Of a stretch of 40,244 bases of DNA, positions 5,445-40,244 are shown in pieces. This stretch comes from an uncultured Bacteroidales bacterium. GTDB lineage: Bacteria; Bacteroidota; Bacteroidia; Bacteroidales; WCHB1-69. The translations under genes were made by a program, and so were the position numbers. The stretch is from contig ONHS01000018.1 in assembly GCA_900317715.1 (NCBI GenBank), positions 1-40,244 on the forward strand, in the 5' to 3' direction. The number at the start of each line of letters is the position of its first letter. Position 1 is the first letter of the stretch. The notes beneath the pieces are model-generated. The model saw nothing but the letters and a program-made list of their open reading frames with translations. It made no database searches and was not told where the DNA came from.

Positions 5445-5472
5445 AATAACCCATAACCCATAGCCAATAACC
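5445..5472. repeat. Heptamer array: four 7-bp units of type MATARCC
   Basis: Four consecutive 7-bp units (AATAACC, CATAACC, CATAGCC, AATAACC) start 5 bp after the flavodiiron stop codon and end 6 bp before the next ATG. No hairpin is seen. It is one member of the period-7 array family in this window. Confidence 0.7.
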
Positions 5473-5478
5473 ATTTTT

Positions 5479-11253: not shown

Positions 11254-11290
11254 CTTTATTATTGACTTAGACAAATGACTTAGACTATTA

Positions 11291-11339
11291 AACCCAAAAC
11301 TCTAAACTCTAAACCCTAAACCCTAAACCCTAAACTAAT
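11291..11339. repeat. Heptamer array resembling plant telomere repeat (AACCCTA)
   Basis: Seven consecutive 7-bp units: AACCCAA, two AACTCTA, three AACCCTA, then AACTAAT. It begins 37 bp after the yggS stop and ends 15 bp before the next ATG. Upstream, TGACTTAGAC occurs twice (about 11264-11285). The match to telomere repeats is most likely coincidental; the 7-bp period fits the other arrays here. Confidence 0.75.
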
Positions 11340-19108: not shown

Positions 19109-19181
<73 letters not shown>

Positions 19182-19183
19182 CG

Positions 19184-19236: not shown

Positions 19237-19355
19237 CAATAATTCATAATGCATAATGCATAATGCACAATTCATAATCTAGCCAACAGCCAAAAGCTAA
19301 AAGCCAACAGCCAACTACTAACTACTAACTGCTAACTACTAACTGCTAACTACTA
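19237..19355. repeat. Composite heptamer array, 17 units in one register (array A)
   Basis: 119 bp that divide without a gap into 17 units of 7 bp. Units 1-6 resemble NCATAAT (two depart by one base), units 7-11 are NNAGCYA and units 12-17 are ACTRCTA, with the variable base running A, A, G, A, G, A. The word changes twice while the 7-bp phase is kept. It fills the space between the tRNA-Phe terminator and the terminator of the reverse rubrerythrin. The preceding 19216-19236 is ACGGTTA-rich and not in phase. The same block order recurs inverted at 20922-20984. Confidence 0.85.
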
Positions 19356-19358
19356 ACT

Positions 19359-19389
19359 AAAAAGCCCCACACCTTTCGGTATGAGGCTT
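19359..19389 (-). terminator. Rho-independent terminator of the reverse rubrerythrin gene
   Basis: 12-bp stem (19362-19373 with 19378-19389, two G-T pairs) closed by a GAAA loop on the minus strand and followed by five T. It starts about 22 nt after the stop codon. Confidence 0.92.
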
Positions 19390-19411
19390 CAAAATATTGA
19401 TTAACAAATCT

Positions 19412-19963
19412 TTACTTCTTGAAATAGCGATTAAAGAGTCCTTCGAAGCCTTGTCCGTGACGAGCTTCGTCCTTAGCCATTTCATGAACGGTATCATGAA
19501 TAGCATCCCAGTTCATCTCTTTCGCGCGCTTAGCGATGCGCATTTTATCCGCACAAGCGCCGCTTTCGGCCATCATACGCTTTTCCAGGTTGGTCTTGGT
19601 ATCCCAAACCACCTCACCGAGTAATTCGGCGAATTTGGCGCAATGCTCGGCCTCCTCGAAGGCATAGCGTTTGAATGCCTCAGCCACTTCAGGATAACCT
19701 TCGCGGTCGGCTTGACGGCTCATGGCCAAATACATGCCCACTTCCGTAGCTTCGCCCATGAAATGCGCATTGAGGTCTTTGATCATCTCTTCGTCGCTAG
19801 TCTTGGCAACACCGATAACGTGCTCTGTAGCAAATGACAACGGACCATTTTCAACCACCTCTTTGAATTTATCGGCAGGTTGCTTGCATTGAGGACATCT
19901 TTCAGGGGGAGTATCTCCTTCGTGTACATAACCGCACACAGTACATACGAATTTTTTCTTCAT
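19412..19963 (-). CDS. Reverse rubrerythrin (peroxide/O2-reducing)
   Basis: 183 aa. The rubredoxin-like Fe(SCys)4 domain is at the N-terminus (Cys7, Cys10, Cys23, Cys26 in VCTVCGY and [11 protein letters not shown]), followed by the four-helix di-iron domain with its Glu/His ligands ([42 protein letters not shown]). This order is the mark of reverse rubrerythrins, which reduce H2O2, and O2 in some clostridia. A perfect 7-4-7 palindrome lies 34 bp before the ATG. A second, classical rubrerythrin gene is 131 bp upstream on the same strand. Confidence 0.94.
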
Positions 19964-19996
19964 AATAATTGGATTAAATGTTAATGAAATATTGTT

Positions 19997-20014
19997 ATTA
20001 ATAATGATATTAAT
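19997..20014. promoter_or_regulatory. Perfect 7-4-7 palindrome upstream of reverse rubrerythrin, possible operator
   Basis: ATTAATA-ATGA-TATTAAT, 34 bp before the start codon at 19963. AT-only dyads of this kind are typical of Fur/PerR-family operators, which control rubrerythrins in other anaerobes. The local AT content is high, so chance is possible. Confidence 0.3.
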
Positions 20015-20030
20015 CTAAAAAAGGTCTTTA

Positions 20031-20097
20031 TCCTTAGTCTTAAGTCTAAGTTCTATGTCTAAGTCTAAGTTTATGTCTAAGTTCTATGTCTAAGTTA
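20031..20097. repeat. TCTAAGT/TCTATG array between the rubrerythrin genes
   Basis: Word TCTAAG(T) alternating with TCTATG/TTATG, units of 5-7 bp, about ten copies. It ends within the stop codon of the classical rubrerythrin (20095-20097), so the array supplies the gene end. It is less regular than the strict 7-bp arrays. Confidence 0.7.
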
Positions 20098-20634
20098 AAA
20101 ATTGTCCGGCATAATCTGGAAATAAGCTTGCGGATGGTCGCAAACAGGACACACATCCGGAGCCTTCTTGCCAACCACGATGTGACCGCAGTTGCTGCAT
20201 TGCCAGATCATGTCATTATCACGAGAGAAAACTAGACCACCTTCAATGTTGGCTAACAGCTTTTTATAACGTTCTTCGTGGTGTTTCTCAATTTCACCCA
20301 CCATAGCAAAAAGCTCAGCAATATGATCGAAACCCTCTTCCTTGGCGGTCTTGGCGAAACCAGCATACATATCCGTCCATTCATAGTTTTCACCAGCGGC
20401 AGCATCTTTCAAATTGGTAACCGTATCCGGAACTTTGCCATCGTGGAGCAATTTGAACCAAATTTTGGCGTGTTCTTTCTCATTGGCAGCCGTCTCCTCA
20501 AAGATAGCGGCAATTTGATTGTAGCCATCCTTTTTGGCCTTGGAAGCATAATATGAATATTTGTTACGTGCTTGAGACTCGCCAGCGAAAGCAGTCTGCA
20601 GATTTTTTTCAGTTTGTGATCCTTTTAATTCCAT
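20095..20634 (-). CDS. rbr: Rubrerythrin (classical domain order)
   Basis: 179 aa NAD(P)H-peroxidase component. The N-terminal four-helix di-iron domain ([55 protein letters not shown]) precedes a C-terminal rubredoxin-like domain with Cys146, Cys149, Cys162 and Cys165 ([17 protein letters not shown]). Together with the reverse rubrerythrin downstream and the flavodiiron protein at 4.2 kb it forms an anaerobe's oxygen and peroxide defence. It has its own promoter at 20693-20701 with an inverted repeat over the likely transcript start. Confidence 0.96.
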
Positions 20635-20667
20635 AATTTTTCTATTGATGATTGTTGAAAATTTATC

Positions 20668-20689
20668 TCATCTTCGTTTCAAAAGATGA
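20668..20689. promoter_or_regulatory. Inverted repeat over the rubrerythrin transcript start, possible operator
   Basis: Perfect 7-bp arms TCATCTT/AAGATGA with an 8-bp centre, immediately downstream of the -7 box. It could be an operator or a leader hairpin. Confidence 0.35.
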
Positions 20690-20692
20690 ACT

Positions 20693-20701
20693 GCAAAATT
20701 A
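20693..20701 (-). promoter_or_regulatory. -7 box of the rubrerythrin promoter
   Basis: TAATTTTGC on the minus strand, giving a leader of about 50 nt to the ATG at 20634. No clear -33 element. Confidence 0.55.
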
Positions 20702-20921
20702 CGCATTTTTCTTTTACTCCCCCCTCTCTCTCAGAAAAAAAATGAAAGATAAAAATACAATTATTGCAACACACTGATAATCAATACACAAATGAAAAAT
20801 ATAGGATATAAGCCGAAAAAAATATTATTTGATACCAAAACAATATAAATCGAAAATAATCGAAAAAATAAAGGAAAATGGAATAATTAGCTGTAAATCA
20901 ATTATTTATATTGCGTTTTAA
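20702..20921. other. AT-rich gap between rubrerythrin promoter and mnmG end
   Basis: 220 bp with no supported gene. The only structure seen is an AT-only inverted repeat AATAATT/AATTATT (20882-20888 with 20900-20906), too weak to call a terminator. No hairpin terminator for the long mnmG operon was found. Confidence 0.4.
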
Positions 20922-20984
20922 GTTAGCTGTTGGCTGTTGGCTGTTGGCATAAATTATAAATTATGAATTATGAATTATGAATTG
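20922..20984. repeat. Composite heptamer array, 9 units in one register (array B)
   Basis: 63 bp made of exactly nine 7-bp units: four GTTRGCW then five TRAATTR. Read on the minus strand the order is ATTCA-type words, then AGCCAAC, then AGCTAAC, the same order as array A at 19237-19355 on the plus strand. The mnmG stop codon and its last two codons lie inside it. Confidence 0.85.
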
Positions 20985-29944: not shown

Positions 29945-30247
29945 AAACACATTTTCTTTTGATTTTTTTTTAGTGGATAAAAGAGAGTTTTTCAACGGCC
30001 TAAAAAAGTTGACAAAAGATGTTCAAAAAGAGTTGGATTTGTGAAGTTTTTATTTATCCAATTTTTATCCACAAGGATTTCAAATCGTAACTTGCATTAT
30101 TTGGAAAACTCGTCAGTTTATAAACATTTTGATGTTGGTAACCTCGTAATTTTCTCATACTCATTTTTTTGTTTATATCTTTGAAAACTCCTTATTTTAC
30201 TGGGATTTTGACGCAATTGTCTGCGTATAAAATCGTTGCGGGATTTA
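29945..30247. other. Candidate replication origin: AT-rich gap with DnaA-box cluster
   Basis: Gene-free AT-rich DNA between rpiB and metG. DnaA-box matches: TTATCCACA perfect at 30065-30073 (+), TTATCCAAT at 30054-30062 (+, 7 of 9) directly in front of it, and TTATCCACT at 29972-29980 (-, 8 of 9). T-rich stretches (29951-29971, 30160-30180) could be unwinding elements. Genes switch strand 2.2 kb to the right. Support from skew and parS-like sites is indirect. Confidence 0.4.
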
Positions 30248-30391
30248 CGATGAAGGAATGATGAAGAGCGATGAATGAAGCGATGAAAAACGATGAAAAA
30301 CGATGAATGAGACGATGAAGACCGATGAAAAAAGGCGATGAATTTTCTCGTTGTTCATCGCCTTTCATCGTTATTCATCGTCCCCTTCATC
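30248..30391. repeat. GATGAA/TTCATC array between metG and the candidate origin
   Basis: Nine GATGAA on the plus strand spaced 10-13 bp apart (close to one helical turn), then four TTCATC in the opposite sense up to the metG stop. The array starts right after the metG stop TGA on the minus strand. Its centre forms the metG terminator hairpin. Confidence 0.8.
30328..30362 (-). terminator. metG terminator built from the repeat
   Basis: Minus-strand hairpin GGCGATGAA/TTCATCGCC (30354-30362 with 30334-30342), 11-nt loop, followed by six T. Confidence 0.75.
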
Positions 30392-30392
30392 G

Positions 30393-32441
30393 TCATTTAA
30401 CCGTACTACCCTCTTTCACCTTCTTTAGCGGTTGCATGATCGAAAGGGAGCCGTCGGCATCTTCAGCCATGAGCACCATACCGTGGGAATCCACACCTTT
30501 GATGTTCTTGGGCGCGAGGTTGATAAGCATCAAAACCTGTTTGCCAACCAAATCTTCAGGTTGATAATATTCTGCAATGCCAGAGATGATTTCGCGGGTA
30601 TCCACGCCGGTATTCACCTTCAGTTTCAGCAGTTTTTTGGTTTTAGCTACCTTTTCTGCTGCCAAAACGGTCACCACGCGGAGGTCCATGTTTTGGAAGT
30701 CGTCGAAAGTAACGTCTGCTTTAGCGGGAACAGCTTCTGCATTTGCCACTTCATTCTGTTTTTTAGTGTCTTCCAACTTCTGTACTTGCTTTGCGATGGT
30801 CTCATCCTCAATCTTTTCGAATAGATATTCGGCAGGATTGAGCGGATCACCGGCTTTCAACAAATCATGACGACCGCCATCCGACCATTTATTATTGTCG
30901 ATATTCAGCATTTTCTGCAACTTCTTCGCCGTAAACGGCAGGAAAGGCTCGCATAAAATAGACAATGAAGCACAAATTTGCAGAGAAACATGCAAAATAG
31001 TCTTCACATATTCAGGATTTTCCTTCTGTTTCTTCCAAGGTTCGGTGTCGGTAAGGTATTTGTTACCCAAACGAGCCAAATTCATCAGTTCGGCTTGTGC
31101 TTCACGGAACTTGTAATGTTCAATGGAATCCGCAATAATATTCGGGAATTGCGCCATCTTTTCGATGATTTCCTTCTCATAATCAGTGAGTTCGCCGCAT
31201 TCTGGAATATTTCCGCCGTAGTATTTATGGGATAATACCACTGTTCTGTTCACAAAGTTGCCGAAGATGGCCAATAATTCGTTGTTGTTTTTGGCTTGGA
31301 AATCCGCCCAAGTGAAGTCGGCATCCTTGGTTTCAGGTGCGATAGAGGTCAACGTATAACGCAGAACGTCCTGTTTGCCTGGAAAATCCTCAATATATTC
31401 GTGTGCCCAAACTGCCCAGTTGCGGGAAGTGGAAATTTTGTCACCTTCAAGGTTCAAAAATTCATTCGCGGGTACATTTTCGGGAAGAATATATCCACCA
31501 TGTGCTTTCAACATGCATGGGAAGATGATGCAGTGGAACACAATGTTATCCTTGCCGATGAAGTGCACCAGTTTGGAGCTTTCGTCCTGCCACCACGGTT
31601 TCCAGTCGGTGTTGTGGGCTTTGGCCCACTCTTTAGTGGCTGAAATATAACCGATTGGGGCATCAAACCAGACGTAAAGGACTTTACCTTCGGCTTCTTT
31701 GAGCGGAACTTTCACACCCCAGGAAAGGTCGCGGGTGACGGCACGAGGTTGCAAACCTTGCTCAATCCATGATTTACATTGTCCGTAAACAGTCGGTCTC
31801 CAGTCAGCTTTATGTCCTTGCAAAATCCATTCTCTCAACCATGCATCATACTCGTTTAGAGGAAGATACCAGTGTTTGGTCTCTTTCAATACAGGGGTGT
31901 TGCCGCTGAGTGCAGATTTCGGGTTGATCAGATCTGTAGCGCTGAGGGAGGTGCCGCAAGCCTCGCACTGATCACCGTATGCGTGTTCATTGTTGCAGTG
32001 TGGGCAAGTTCCGGTGATATAACGATCGGCTAAAAACTCATGTGCCTCTTCATCATAATATTGTTGGGAAACCTTCTCAATCAGTTTTCCGTTATCATAC
32101 AAATATTTGAAAAAGTCCGATGCCGTTTCGTGATGCGTCGGATTCGATGTGCGGGAGTAAATATCGAAAGAGATGCCGAGTTCTTCGAACGATTTCTTAA
32201 TAATATTGTGATAGCGATCCACAATGTCTTGCGGAGTCACGCCCTCTTTGCGAGCCTTGATCGTGATAGGTACGCCGTGTTCGTCGGAGCCGCCGATGAA
32301 AAGGACATCCTTGCCGTTGTTACGCAGGTAGCGAACGTAGATGTCGGCGGGTATATACACGCCGGCAAGGTGTCCGATATGCACGGGACCATTGGCATAC
32401 GGTAGCGCGGAAGTAATCGTGTAACGTTTTATATCTTTCAT
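30393..32441 (-). CDS. metG: Methionyl-tRNA synthetase
   Basis: 682 aa class I synthetase. HIGH-type motif [12 protein letters not shown] near residue 20, zinc knuckle [23 protein letters not shown] loop in the variant form [11 protein letters not shown], anticodon-binding domain, and a C-terminal EMAP/Arc1p-like tRNA-binding OB fold ([22 protein letters not shown]). The KISTS variant and the C-terminal domain are usual for Bacteroidota. Own promoter at 32487-32495 and a repeat-built terminator at 30328. It is the one gene right of the candidate origin that points toward it. Confidence 0.97.
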
Positions 32442-35640: not shown

Positions 35641-35705
35641 TGACGTGTGATGTGTGACGTATGACGTTTTAAACATCATAAATCATACGTCTCAAGTCAT
35701 AAATC
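35641..35705. repeat. Two heptamer arrays between the PAS gene and rlmB
   Basis: 35641-35668 holds four 7-bp units (TGACGTG, TGATGTG, TGACGTA, TGACGTT). After 2 bp, 35671-35705 holds five units ending in TC (AAACATC, ATAAATC, ATACGTC, TCAAGTC, ATAAATC). The two blocks are partly inverted: GACGTATGA (35656-35664) pairs perfectly with TCATACGTC (35683-35691), so the transcript can fold just before rlmB. Confidence 0.75.
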
Positions 35706-35718
35706 AAAATCTCAAAAA

Positions 35719-36971: not shown

Positions 36972-37903
36972 AAGATAAAGAACCGATAATCACAGTGTTA
37001 GGACCGACAGCCACGGGAAAAACCGGCGTGGCGGTGCGGATTGCCGCGGAATTGAACGGCGAGGTGGTCAGTGCCGACTCTCGACAAGTTTTCCGTCGTA
37101 TGGACATTGGTTCGGGTAAAGATCTTTCTGAATATCAATACAATGGCGTTCCCATTCCCTATCATCTCATTGATATTGAGGAACCCGGGGTAGAATATAA
37201 CGTATTTCGCTATCAACAAGCAGCTTACGAGGCAATGGAGGGAATTCGCGCTCGTGGCAAACGCATTGTGTTGTGCGGCGGCAGTGGTATGTACGTGGAG
37301 GCGGTGTTGCGCGGCTATCGTCTCTTTCCCGTACCGGAAAACGAGCCCTTGCGAAAAGAACTGGAAACGCATACAGATGAGGAACTTACGGAACTTTTGG
37401 CCTCCTATAAATCTTTGCACAATGACACTGATACTTCAGAGCGTCCACGACTGATCCGCGCTATCGAAATCGAGGACTATTATGCCAAACATCCCGAATT
37501 GAGCGAGCGCGTGAGACCGTTGCAGTCTGCCATTATCGGGTTGTGTGGTAATCGCGACCACATCCGCGAGCGCATCACCCGACGTTTGCAGGCACGATTG
37601 CAAGAGGGCATGGTCGATGAGGTGAAAGCCTTGCTGGACGAAGGCATTCCCGCCGAACGACTCATTCGTTACGGATTGGAGTATAAATTTGTGACACAGT
37701 ATCTTACAGGCGAACTCCACTATGGTGACATGGTGAGTTTGCTTAACACCGCCATCCATCAATTCTCAAAACGCCAGATGACCTGGTTCCGCCGCATGGA
37801 GCGCATGGGATTCAACATCCACTGGGTCAACGCCGAACTGCCGGAAGAGGAAAAGTTCAGAGAGATTTACAAGTGGCTGAAGGAAGAGGGAATAGAGAGT
37901 TAG
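36968..37903 (+). CDS. miaA: tRNA dimethylallyltransferase MiaA
   Basis: 311 aa. Adds the isopentenyl group to A37 of tRNAs reading UNN codons. P-loop GPTATGKTG (12-20), VSADSRQVFRRMDIGSGKD, HLIDIEEPGVEYNVFRYQ, VLCGGSGMYVEAVLRG and ITRRLQARLQEGMVDEVKALL. The stop TAG at 37901-37903 is formed by a two-unit GTTAGCA array. Its last 47 bp overlap the convergent subtilisin-barrel reading frame. Confidence 0.96.
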   Translation: MKDKEPIITVLGPTATGKTGVAVRIAAELNGEVVSADSRQVFRRMDIGSGKDLSEYQYNGVPIPYHLIDIEEPGVEYNVFRYQQAAYEAMEGIRARGKRIVLCGGSGMYVEAVLRGYRLFPVPENEPLRKELETHTDEELTELLASYKSLHNDTDTSERPRLIRAIEIEDYYAKHPELSERVRPLQSAIIGLCGNRDHIRERITRRLQARLQEGMVDEVKALLDEGIPAERLIRYGLEYKFVTQYLTGELHYGDMVSLLNTAIHQFSKRQMTWFRRMERMGFNIHWVNAELPEEEKFREIYKWLKEEGIES

Positions 37904-40211
37904 CAGTTAGCAGCTGCAACCCAATCTCCCATTTCGGGAGGTCGGAGGTGTTGGTGCCTTTCACCTTCAGGAGGTTGGAGATGCGGTATTGACCGTAGAT
38001 GGCGAAACGGCGGGTGATACCTACGCGCAAGCGCACGCCGTAGTCGAGACGGTTCATCGCAAGACCATATTTTCCATCATTGAGGTATTTTTTGACGATA
38101 TGCGTGTTGATTTCATCGCCGCTTTGGGTTTGGATTTTGTAGCGGCTTCCGGTATTCCATTCGCCGAAAAGACCTGCATCCAGATACCACCACTCTTTAC
38201 CGGCATAGCCTAAGATGAAACGGTTCACCCATTCCAAATCAAATTTCGTGACTTTGATGTTATTCTTGACCACTTTAATATCCATTGTTCCGTCAGGCAA
38301 ACCCGTAAGAGGATTGACGAATGTCGGACTTTCTACTGCATACCAAGAGGAACCGAAACCGATGCGGAAACCTATTGCGTAAGGTCTTGCGACGCGCCAG
38401 CTGTTGTCGAAAGCAAACGTCAAACCGTGGGAAATTCTATCGCTGGCCCAAATATTGCCGTTTGGACTCCACATGGAAGGAAGCATAAAGGAGAAGTTCA
38501 GTACGGTGCTGAATTTGTAAGTGGCCTTGAATTTGCGGGTGTAGATGTCGTTATCGGGTGTGGAAATTTCACCACTGTTCAAAAAACTGTACAGATACTG
38601 GGAATTCTCACGGATAGTGCTGTCCGCTTTCGGCATTTTGTCGGTTCCGATTTTATAAGTGAGGTACTGTCCGTTACACCAAATCTCAATGGTCTGTCCG
38701 ATAGTGCCGTCTCTATCGATTCTTTTCGCTCTAACTTCCCCTGTCTCATAATCTGTTGAAAAGTAAGTTTGGTTGTAGAGCTCAATACTACCATCGCCAT
38801 TCACAATTTTGTAAAAGATGTCTGTTCCAACGAGTGTGTCAGAAGTGGGAATTATGTAGAGGTAAGAGTCGTCTTCTTTCAGCACAATGTACTTGGAGTT
38901 GTCCGTTTTTCTCTCTTCCGGGAAAAAGTAGTCGGCTTGCGGCACACCGTAACCGAATGCATAGTCGAAGTAGGGATAGTGGTTACCGGATTTCTCAATC
39001 TCAGTCTTCAGCTGCCAAGCGGTGTATTCGGGGTGCAGCTGTTTCACGCAGGCGGCGAAACCAGCCGTCATCGGAGAGGAGAAAGAGGTGCCGTAAGCTT
39101 GGGTGAAGTTGCCATTTTCGCCTGCCACCCAGCAGTGAGCCATGGCCACCACGTTGGGTTTCATGCGACCGTCGGCTGTCGGGCCGAATGAGCTGAACTC
39201 AGTGAGTTTATCGATAGAATAGACGCCACCCACAGAGATAATACTGTCGGCATCGGCGGGTGTGATGAGCATCTTCCACTCACTGTCGTCGCCCTCGTTG
39301 CCCATGGCGTTGCAGACTAAAATACCCTTGCGAGCAGCGGTATTGGCAGCCCTTGCCACCATGGAAGTACCGTTCATCTGTTTCACTTGGTAACGTTGTT
39401 TGCCATAGCCGAGGGAGCTGTTCACAATGTCGGCGCCGTTCTGGTCGGCCCATTCGAGTGCCTGCACCCACCAAACCTCCTCTTTCAAGGGCTCGGTGTT
39501 TATCTCGGTGCGTGCCAGCAGAAATTGCGCGTCGGGCGCCATGCCCAACCACGTAGTGTCGCTGATTTTACCACCGATACAGCTCAGTACCATGCGACCG
39601 TGCGAATTGGCCAAATAGACATTCTCTTTCTTTTTCGCGAAGTTCCAGGTCTTGATAATCTGGTTGTTATCAAGCATGTGCTTGAATGCGGGATGCGTGT
39701 TCACATCTGGGAAACCGGCGTCAAACACGGCAATGCGCACGCCCTTTCCCGTGATGTTGTGCTGTTTGAACATCTCACCCTTGTGAATGTCAATTTGGGC
39801 ACTGTAGTCCTTGTAATATTTAGACGTAATCTCCTCTTCAGGCTCCGAAACGATTTCCATATCGCTGGCAATCAGTTGGATGCCTGCCACAAACGGAAAT
39901 TGTTGGATGACGGCCATCTGCTCTTCCGTAGCCATCACGCCGGCCGCGTTGAGCCACCGCGAGGTGCCGATCAGCTCCTCCGAAGCTTTTTCCACCGCTG
40001 ACGCGTATTCGCTGTTCACGGGATAGTTAGTGATGTCGTAGAGGTCCGTACCATTCAGGGTGTAACGCTCAATGGCCTTTGTATCAAAGTATTGATACGG
40101 GTCAAACGTGGTGTTCTGCTTGTCGGTGAAGAACACCCAATAGCTGTTTTGCGCACTGGCGATGCCGAGGATGGCGCAGAAGAGGGTAATTAATAATGTA
40201 GTTTTTTTCAT
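37857..40211 (-). CDS. Subtilisin-family (S8) protease fused to a C-terminal outer-membrane beta-barrel
   Basis: 784 aa. Signal peptide 1-20. N-terminal prodomain-like region (about 21-135). The S8 domain (about 137-425) has an intact triad: Asp164 in VRIAVFDAGFPD, His204 in NSHGRM, Ser376 in YGTSFSSPM, with oxyanion Asn305 in AMGNEGD. After a linker of about 100 residues, about 535-767 is a run of amphipathic aromatic strands (ATYKFSTVLNFSFML, AIGFRIGFGSSWYAVE, FDLEWVNRFILGYAG, YGVRLRVGITRRFAIYGQYRISNLL, KWEIGLQL) like an eight-strand barrel. There is no T9SS domain, so the barrel itself probably anchors the protease. The last 17 residues come from a repeat and the antisense of miaA, so the natural stop seems lost. 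Only 33 bp of its upstream region is in the window. Confidence 0.85.
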   Translation of the reverse strand: MKKTTLLITLFCAILGIASAQNSYWVFFTDKQNTTFDPYQYFDTKAIERYTLNGTDLYDITNYPVNSEYASAVEKASEELIGTSRWLNAAGVMATEEQMAVIQQFPFVAGIQLIASDMEIVSEPEEEITSKYYKDYSAQIDIHKGEMFKQHNITGKGVRIAVFDAGFPDVNTHPAFKHMLDNNQIIKTWNFAKKKENVYLANSHGRMVLSCIGGKISDTTWLGMAPDAQFLLARTEINTEPLKEEVWWVQALEWADQNGADIVNSSLGYGKQRYQVKQMNGTSMVARAANTAARKGILVCNAMGNEGDDSEWKMLITPADADSIISVGGVYSIDKLTEFSSFGPTADGRMKPNVVAMAHCWVAGENGNFTQAYGTSFSSPMTAGFAACVKQLHPEYTAWQLKTEIEKSGNHYPYFDYAFGYGVPQADYFFPEERKTDNSKYIVLKEDDSYLYIIPTSDTLVGTDIFYKIVNGDGSIELYNQTYFSTDYETGEVRAKRIDRDGTIGQTIEIWCNGQYLTYKIGTDKMPKADSTIRENSQYLYSFLNSGEISTPDNDIYTRKFKATYKFSTVLNFSFMLPSMWSPNGNIWASDRISHGLTFAFDNSWRVARPYAIGFRIGFGSSWYAVESPTFVNPLTGLPDGTMDIKVVKNNIKVTKFDLEWVNRFILGYAGKEWWYLDAGLFGEWNTGSRYKIQTQSGDEINTHIVKKYLNDGKYGLAMNRLDYGVRLRVGITRRFAIYGQYRISNLLKVKGTNTSDLPKWEIGLQLLTANSLFPLPSATCKSL
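37899..37912. repeat. Two-unit GTTAGCA array at the miaA/subtilisin junction
   Basis: GTTAGCA twice. The first unit contains the miaA stop TAG; on the other strand the array is translated as part of the subtilisin tail. A matching CAGTTAG pair is at 40231-40244 beyond the other end of the gene. Confidence 0.65.
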
Positions 40212-40230: not shown

Positions 40231-40244
40231 CAGTTAGCAGTTAG
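40231..40244. repeat. CAGTTAG array at the window edge
   Basis: CAGTTAG twice, running off the end of the window, 19 bp before the start codon of the subtilisin-barrel gene. Same word (phase-shifted) as at 37899-37912. Confidence 0.55.

Follow-up and report, generated by a model that had tools for sequence, protein, structure and literature searches.

How can an intergenic tandem repeat change its word twice and still keep a strict 7-bp step? The question is raised by array A (positions 19239-19359, plus strand) in the window, the whole 40,244-nt stretch of DNA analysed here, which is contig 63 of a 3.14-Mb genome assembled in 138 contigs. Array A consists of 17 heptamers with three words, ATAATKC, AGCYAAN and TRCTAAC. 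The whole units occupy 19239-19357, with two bases of an eighteenth unit following, and read ATAATTC, ATAATGC (three times), ACAATTC, ATAATCT, AGCCAAC, AGCCAAA, AGCTAAA, AGCCAAC (twice), TACTAAC (twice), TGCTAAC, TACTAAC, TGCTAAC and TACTAAC. One register runs through the array without slip, despite the two word changes. The initial annotation had described 17 heptamers without slip at this site, and a direct reading bears this out, with coordinates that differ by 2 bp. The array is flanked by two terminators, that of tRNA-Phe (19109-19182) and that of a convergent rubrerythrin-like gene (19412-19963).

Array B (20922-20983, minus strand) has 8.9 units and two words, and overlaps the gidA/mnmG stop codon. 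Its minus strand sequence is AATTCATAATTC..GCCAACAGCC..AGCTAAC, i.e., ATAATTC words, then GCCAACA, then AGCTAAC. Arrays A and B (starting at 19239 and 20922) display the identical composite of ATAATTC, AGCCAAC and GCTAAC, in that order and in opposite orientations. The two arrays (19239-20983) flank two rubrerythrin genes (19412-19963 and 20095-20634), which are separated by an AGTCTA array (20036-20095) that has a mixed 6/13/19-bp period and is not strictly heptameric.

The other arrays of the window are given on the plus strand. An ATAACCC array of 4 units (5446-5473) fills the 39-bp gap of two codirectional genes, and a TAAACCC array of 6.7 units (11290-11335) ends 19 bp upstream of the start of an Omp85-family gene. 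A TGACGTG array of 3.9 units (35641-35667) begins at the first base past a stop codon; its inward-facing partner is a degenerate ATCATAA/GTCATAA array with an indel (35675-35711; 3% indels by TRF). An AGTTAGC doublet (37898-37913) contains the miaA stop codon and belongs to the genome's commonest dispersed array family, and CAGTTAGCAGTTAG is present in 2 units at the window edge (40231-40244), upstream of a minus-strand subtilase gene. The initial annotation had listed all of these, and array B, as strict 7-bp arrays. This holds at 5446, 11290, 20922 and 35641; the array at 35675-35711 is not strict, and those at 37898 and 40231 have only about 2 units each and are singly not significant, with both in the commonest word family. 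At a score threshold of 12 the window has 4 arrays, and 20 Markov-shuffled windows have 0. A repeat of a different type is found at 30247-30397, where an array not built of heptamers, with periods of 10/22/32 bp (ACGATGAAGA), is followed by an inverted TTCATCG array.

Period 7 is a property of the genome at large. The genomes compared are MAGs, one per species, read as samples rather than as whole genomes: 440 kb of the source genome (the window plus 400 kb from large contigs) and 1.27 Mb of congeners, 1.7 Mb in total, with genes called by a simple codon-model ORF finder. Intergenic autocorrelation in the 440 kb, assayed against dinucleotide shuffles, gives z=27 at lag 7, z=29 at lag 14 and z=21 at lag 21, versus z=12 at lag 6, z=5.5 at lag 8 and z=1.8 at lag 9; a z=16 at lag 3 reflects coding DNA missed by the ORF caller. 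The initial annotation had asked for an excess of lag 7 over lags 6, 8 and 9 and over shuffled sequence, and its claim comes through this comparison intact. Sorted by period, the same 440 kb have 114 arrays of period 7, 9 of period 8, 6 of period 6 and 1 of period 9. Of the 114 period-7 arrays, 105 lie mostly in non-coding DNA and only 9 inside ORFs. A density of 26 per 100 kb, extrapolated over 3.14 Mb, corresponds to about 800 arrays per genome. With a 7-bp excess, a mainly non-coding location and changes in length by whole units, the arrays are heptanucleotide simple sequence repeats of the LSSR/STRR kind. Arrays of other periods are also present: period-8 arrays (ACGATGAT) recur in the source genome, and period-11 arrays are found in two congeners (G002 and G020).

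The words are drawn from a restricted vocabulary. Exact tandem doublets at 218 loci (440 kb) represent 69 words of about 1170 possible, and the 20 commonest words make up 69% of these loci. A 2.5-unit AACTACT pattern, 2 mismatches allowed, matches the genome 491 times and its reversed control once; a 4.5-unit (32-bp) AGTTAGN array matches 124 times, versus 0 for the control. The proposal of a shared period without shared sequence therefore fails inside the genome on these counts; it stands between species, as described below. At junctions of two different words, the phase is the one that aligns them best in 89 of 113 cases, against 16 expected; this count includes 28 of the 46 pairs with two or three differences among their seven positions. 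The register is thus kept at word changes, as had been claimed, which indicates that words of one array are mostly related by point substitution within a continuous register.

The AGTTAGN class has a typical length of 4.5 units, and the variant letters of its 32-bp blocks recur as strings (CTTC in 16 and CCTC in 12 of 76). Identical variant strings at unlinked loci amount to 250 pairs, versus 117 +/- 11 after shuffling of all units. However, a null that keeps the per-position frequencies gives 209 +/- 20 pairs, and thus most of the sharing signal is that of a 32-bp block with defined ends.

Comparison with relatives shows how the arrays have changed. The gidA relatives come from MAGs of uncultured Bacteroidales, several of which derive from the rumen or from other gut samples. 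Across 35 congeners the number of matches to the array word varies between 0 and 552 per genome, and 24 other families of the order have almost none. Most congeners sampled have 7.5-28 period-7 arrays per 100 kb; low values are 2.5 per 100 kb in G004, 0 in G034 and 0 in G026, the last from a single 20-kb stretch. It should be noted that congeners share arrays by descent, and that counts over congeners are not fully independent. Period-7 arrays are absent from 131 kb of more distant Bacteroidetes, and 100 kb of G345, another of the Bacteroidetes, which has the TAACTRC word, contain no arrays.

Downstream of gidA, relatives carry AGTGAGT, AGGCAAC, GTTTAGG, GTGATTA or TTGTGAT arrays, or none; the AGTGAGT array belongs to a relative whose protein is 93% identical. 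In array-free congeners a conserved box (TTGATAATCAATAATATATT-like) is often found directly after the gidA stop codon, and the array thus sits between the stop and the box. The miaA stop site shows the same pattern, with array words that differ between congeners. At these sites the word is another one and the period is kept, which agrees with the initial view that what is conserved, from species to species, is the length of the unit.

Four species at about 85-87% DNA identity were compared for indels of 7-150 bp; of 357 such indels, 109 have a length divisible by 7, with about 51 expected. Where both species have an array in an orthologous gap, a word is in common in 27 of 36 gaps, versus 4.6 for shuffled partners. 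In several orthologous gaps the flanks are alike and the array words different, and many others hold no array at all. At about 86% DNA identity arrays are thus inherited per locus, with occasional replacement by another word at that site. In the miaA region of two congeners (L185 from G006 and L186 from G010), identity switches between about 91 and 100% from one comparison window to the next, which suggests interspecies recombination; the array-bearing miaA gap is 99% identical between G006 and G010.

Placement of the arrays is not random with respect to genes. In the source genome arrays make up 13-16% of the DNA of codirectional and convergent gaps and 2% of that of divergent gaps; in the 1.7 Mb, which include several congeners, these values are 10-11% and 2.8%. 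In codirectional gaps, 110 of 201 arrays overlap the upstream stop codon or begin no more than 10 bp from it, with 41 expected from random placement. Start codons show no clear excess (51 arrays within 10 bp, also against 41 expected).

The arrays also have a polarity. Read in the sense of the gene, the stop-side third of gaps in the source genome has 45 G-rich and 12 C-rich arrays, and the start-side third 8 and 29 (stop/start contrast, p=4.5e-8). Array-free gaps of the same genome have no G/C skew of this kind. The polarity is replicated in 8 congeners, with G:C ratios of 25:9 on the stop side and 4:13 on the start side (p=0.001). Convergent and divergent gaps, with 25 G to 7 C on the left and 6 to 22 on the right, fit the same geometry, and the rule is thus centred on the gap and not on gene direction: on each side of a gap the GT- or G-rich strand has its 3′ end pointing away from the gene that flanks it. 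Gaps with two arms have them in the order G-then-C in 40 of 41 cases. An orientation split of 124:17 was obtained by naming the majority strand of each word post hoc and overstates the effect; the other polarity counts are free of this. The ATAATTC class consistently departs from this skew, yet its strand is mostly fixed.

An ORF-calling artefact was considered as a cause of the polarity and is rejected. With gene starts restricted to ATG the polarity is unchanged (GT outward 101:52 beside stops and 78:20 beside starts), and only the few arrays noted above lie inside ORFs.

Two further observations concern array orientation. In G061, which has the TAACTRC word and is from another family, AGTATTT and AGTAGTT heptamer arrays have GT outward in 8 of 9 cases, in 10 stretches (L289-L298) most of which were chosen around known matches; this hints at a polarity beyond one genus. 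Near-identical G-then-C arrays with a common loop, GAGATTGCCC, bracket a gene of 1761 aa (L028, 767-859 and 6225-6330).

The best reading, to which we would give about an even chance, is a genus-specific expansion of known intergenic heptanucleotide repeats that grow by slippage in 7-bp steps and spread in part by ectopic copying. It builds on what was observed directly, i.e., the 7-bp unit, the restricted vocabulary, the in-register drift of words, the length changes in multiples of 7, the placement at stops and the polarity. Arrays would lengthen and shorten in whole 7-bp units, by slippage or by unequal pairing at replication or repair, and point mutation would make their words drift. Copying between loci, with 3′ ends pairing ectopically with similar arrays, may account for some arrays, the 32-bp AGTTAGN block among them, possibly by short-patch conversion or template switching. 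Selection would purge arrays from genes and promoters, so that they would survive in gene-free DNA, mostly just behind stops. The depletion in divergent gaps speaks for this reading. Slippage alone predicts neither the shared words at hundreds of loci, nor the 4.5-unit length of AGTTAGN, nor the polarity. The polarity would follow if copying begins at 3′ ends that point away from the gene and favours GT-rich strands, which is the weakest step. Counting against ectopic copying, per-position frequencies explain most of the AGTTAGN string sharing, and the 1.7-Mb sample yielded no donor-recipient pair of arrays.

Alternatively, the arrays may be selected gene-boundary elements that close all reading frames behind stops, provide G-poor, A/C-rich leaders before starts, or avoid C-rich RNA on which Rho could load, with the polarity arising from selection on RNA. 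The excess beside stop codons is in keeping with this, as is the use of TAG in 42 of 80 stops overlapped by arrays, compared with 24% of all genes, and start-side arrays are A/C-rich in the gene sense. Array words contain a stop codon on the outward strand in 75% of cases and on the inward strand in 59%, versus 55 +/- 3% for shuffled letters. Frame closure by stop-bearing words, as raised in the initial annotation, thus shows as a modest enrichment but does not serve as the main rule: arrays with a stop on the inward strand alone have GT outward in a ratio of 56:6. That polarity is driven by stop codons alone is rejected on this count. Selection on leaders only is likewise rejected; start-side arrays upstream of a TAnnTTTG promoter-like motif keep GT outward 9:1, in a small set of 10 cases. 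One symmetric rule would moreover require two separate forces, and many orthologous gaps hold no array. We regard selected boundary elements as possible, well short of probable. A cause at the DNA level, with copying directed by 3′ ends and GT-rich strands preferred, is favoured over selection on RNA by a small margin, since gaps of every type obey one symmetric rule.

A DNA-level cause could also take a different form, an unrecognised process by which 7-bp words are written or copied from the ends of genes into the intergenic DNA beyond. The GT-rich strand would then be the growing 3′ strand, and the machinery would set the unit length and polarity and leave the word free. Such a process seems unlikely.

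Slightly more doubtful is a mobile repeat, in which a Y1 transposase (HUH, REP-associated/IS200-like) inserts arrays, at least those of the AGTTAGN class, behind stops in a fixed orientation. The many dispersed AGTTAGN copies and the defined 32 bp of their block speak for it, and in gap sequences a REP-like palindrome is found just downstream of AGTTAGN arrays. However, the palindrome is limited to some arrays of one word class, and no target-site duplication was seen in the cases inspected by eye. Of 40 congeners, 36 have a Y1_Tnp match; the four without one are G034, G035, G016 and G355, of which G034 and G035 are also without the array word, a weak lead. Against the lead, array density does not go with the number of Y1 copies, of which the array-rich G000 has 2, and the array-poor G004 and G024 also carry Y1.

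In G000 and G027, many AGTTAGN arrays are followed by the palindromic unit (AAAGGGCTGAAAGCCCGACCTATG..AACCYAGGGTGAGCGAAGCGAGCCCTRGGA) or by another of this type (CCTTGAGCAGCCCCGTAGGGGCAAGAG). REP-like palindromes were located in L012 (4117-4219, 13989-14185, 17736-17844 and 18415-18626), in L011 (4059-4195) and at the G027 loci L145 and L159. REP/BIME elements, which are associated with Y1 (RAYT) transposases, are intergenic, dispersed and palindromic and often lie downstream of genes. The arrays resemble them in being intergenic, dispersed and often downstream of genes; unlike them they are not palindromic, are built of tandem 7-bp units, and have a link to Y1 that is a candidate only.

Transcript hairpins are improbable. 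The inverted G-then-C arms would fold into terminators or mRNA-stabilising stems, and besides the near-invariant order of arms in two-armed gaps, arms within one gap are complementary in 50 cases, versus 28 +/- 4 when shuffled. A C-then-G order would fold equally well, so G-then-C is not required; most arrays are single-armed, and many gaps either contain an intrinsic terminator of their own or lack one. The median fold z is -1.74 for 61 array gaps and -1.78 for 45 array-free gaps, i.e., there is no extra structure, and a hairpin or terminator function is rejected since array gaps fold no more strongly than array-free ones. Weakest of all, and very improbable, is RNA-templated or end-joining repeat addition at DNA breaks, as in fused telomeres with GT strands head to head: the outward GT on both flanks is the geometry of two extended and then joined 3′ ends and the word CCCTAAA is the plant telomere repeat, but reverse transcriptase and Ku end joining are rejected as sources, with no RVT_1 match in G000 (100% complete and array-rich) and no Ku in any of 40 congeners, dozens of words would demand dozens of templates, and arrays of sister species differ by units and not by fresh addition.

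In comparison with known systems, heptamers are the commonest long repeat unit in bacteria, with the preference for 7 unexplained (Mrazek 2007, as summarised in PMC4679880; PMC4692102); an interaction of unit length with polymerase has been proposed as its cause (PMC4679880, PMC4692102). Why heptamers dominate long bacterial repeats has been a question since 2007. In the arrays described here, dozens of words have in common their unit length, their register and the rule of orientation, which makes unit length separable from sequence. Relatives with and without arrays at the same sites make polymerase or repair geometry, boundary selection and a mobile copier distinguishable by comparison.

The arrays are intergenic heptamers like the LSSRs of Mrazek et al. 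(2007) and the STRRs of heterocystous cyanobacteria. Their density, at 26 per 100 kb, is unlike the 3.4 per 100 kb of Trichormus plasmid A (NC_007410), where 8 arrays show no trend in stop adjacency or polarity and are too few to exclude either. In Xanthomonas and Nostoc, GGGAATC / GGGGA(T/C)T heptamers form dispersed heterogeneous arrays over-represented in non-coding DNA (PMC4692102); these represent one G-quadruplex-type word, unlike the words here, which are mostly without G-runs. The cyanobacterial STRRs had been named as the closest parallel, which is fair, but the heptamers reported from Bacteroidetes (PMC4679880) are closer.

TAACTGA direct repeats are found in Beggiatoaceae, Cyanobacteria and some Bacteroidetes (MacGregor 2015, PMC4679880). 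Their distribution is patchy; in Bacteroidetes they form long arrays mixed with other heptamers, Cyanothece strains differ by indels in 7-nt steps, and in Beggiatoaceae the repeats lie just upstream of start codons, with single-base variants rare (PMC4679880). The present arrays are similarly intergenic heptamers, and their word TAACTGC is one base from TAACTGA. TAACTGA itself is absent from the 69 tandem words (440 kb), which include TAACTGC and TAACTAC. Unlike the Beggiatoaceae repeats, the arrays abut stops, use many words side by side and take a fixed orientation with respect to the gap. Neither this orientation rule nor the abutment to stop codons appears to have been described before; the open-access literature searched has no description of either, and on Bacteroidales heptamers it yielded only PMC4679880 and PMC4692102. 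The polarity is new, and it is left unexplained by hairpin RNA, by stop codons alone, by reverse transcriptase or by Ku. As a rule it makes a sharp prediction for the heptamers of Nostoc, Microcystis and Xanthomonas.
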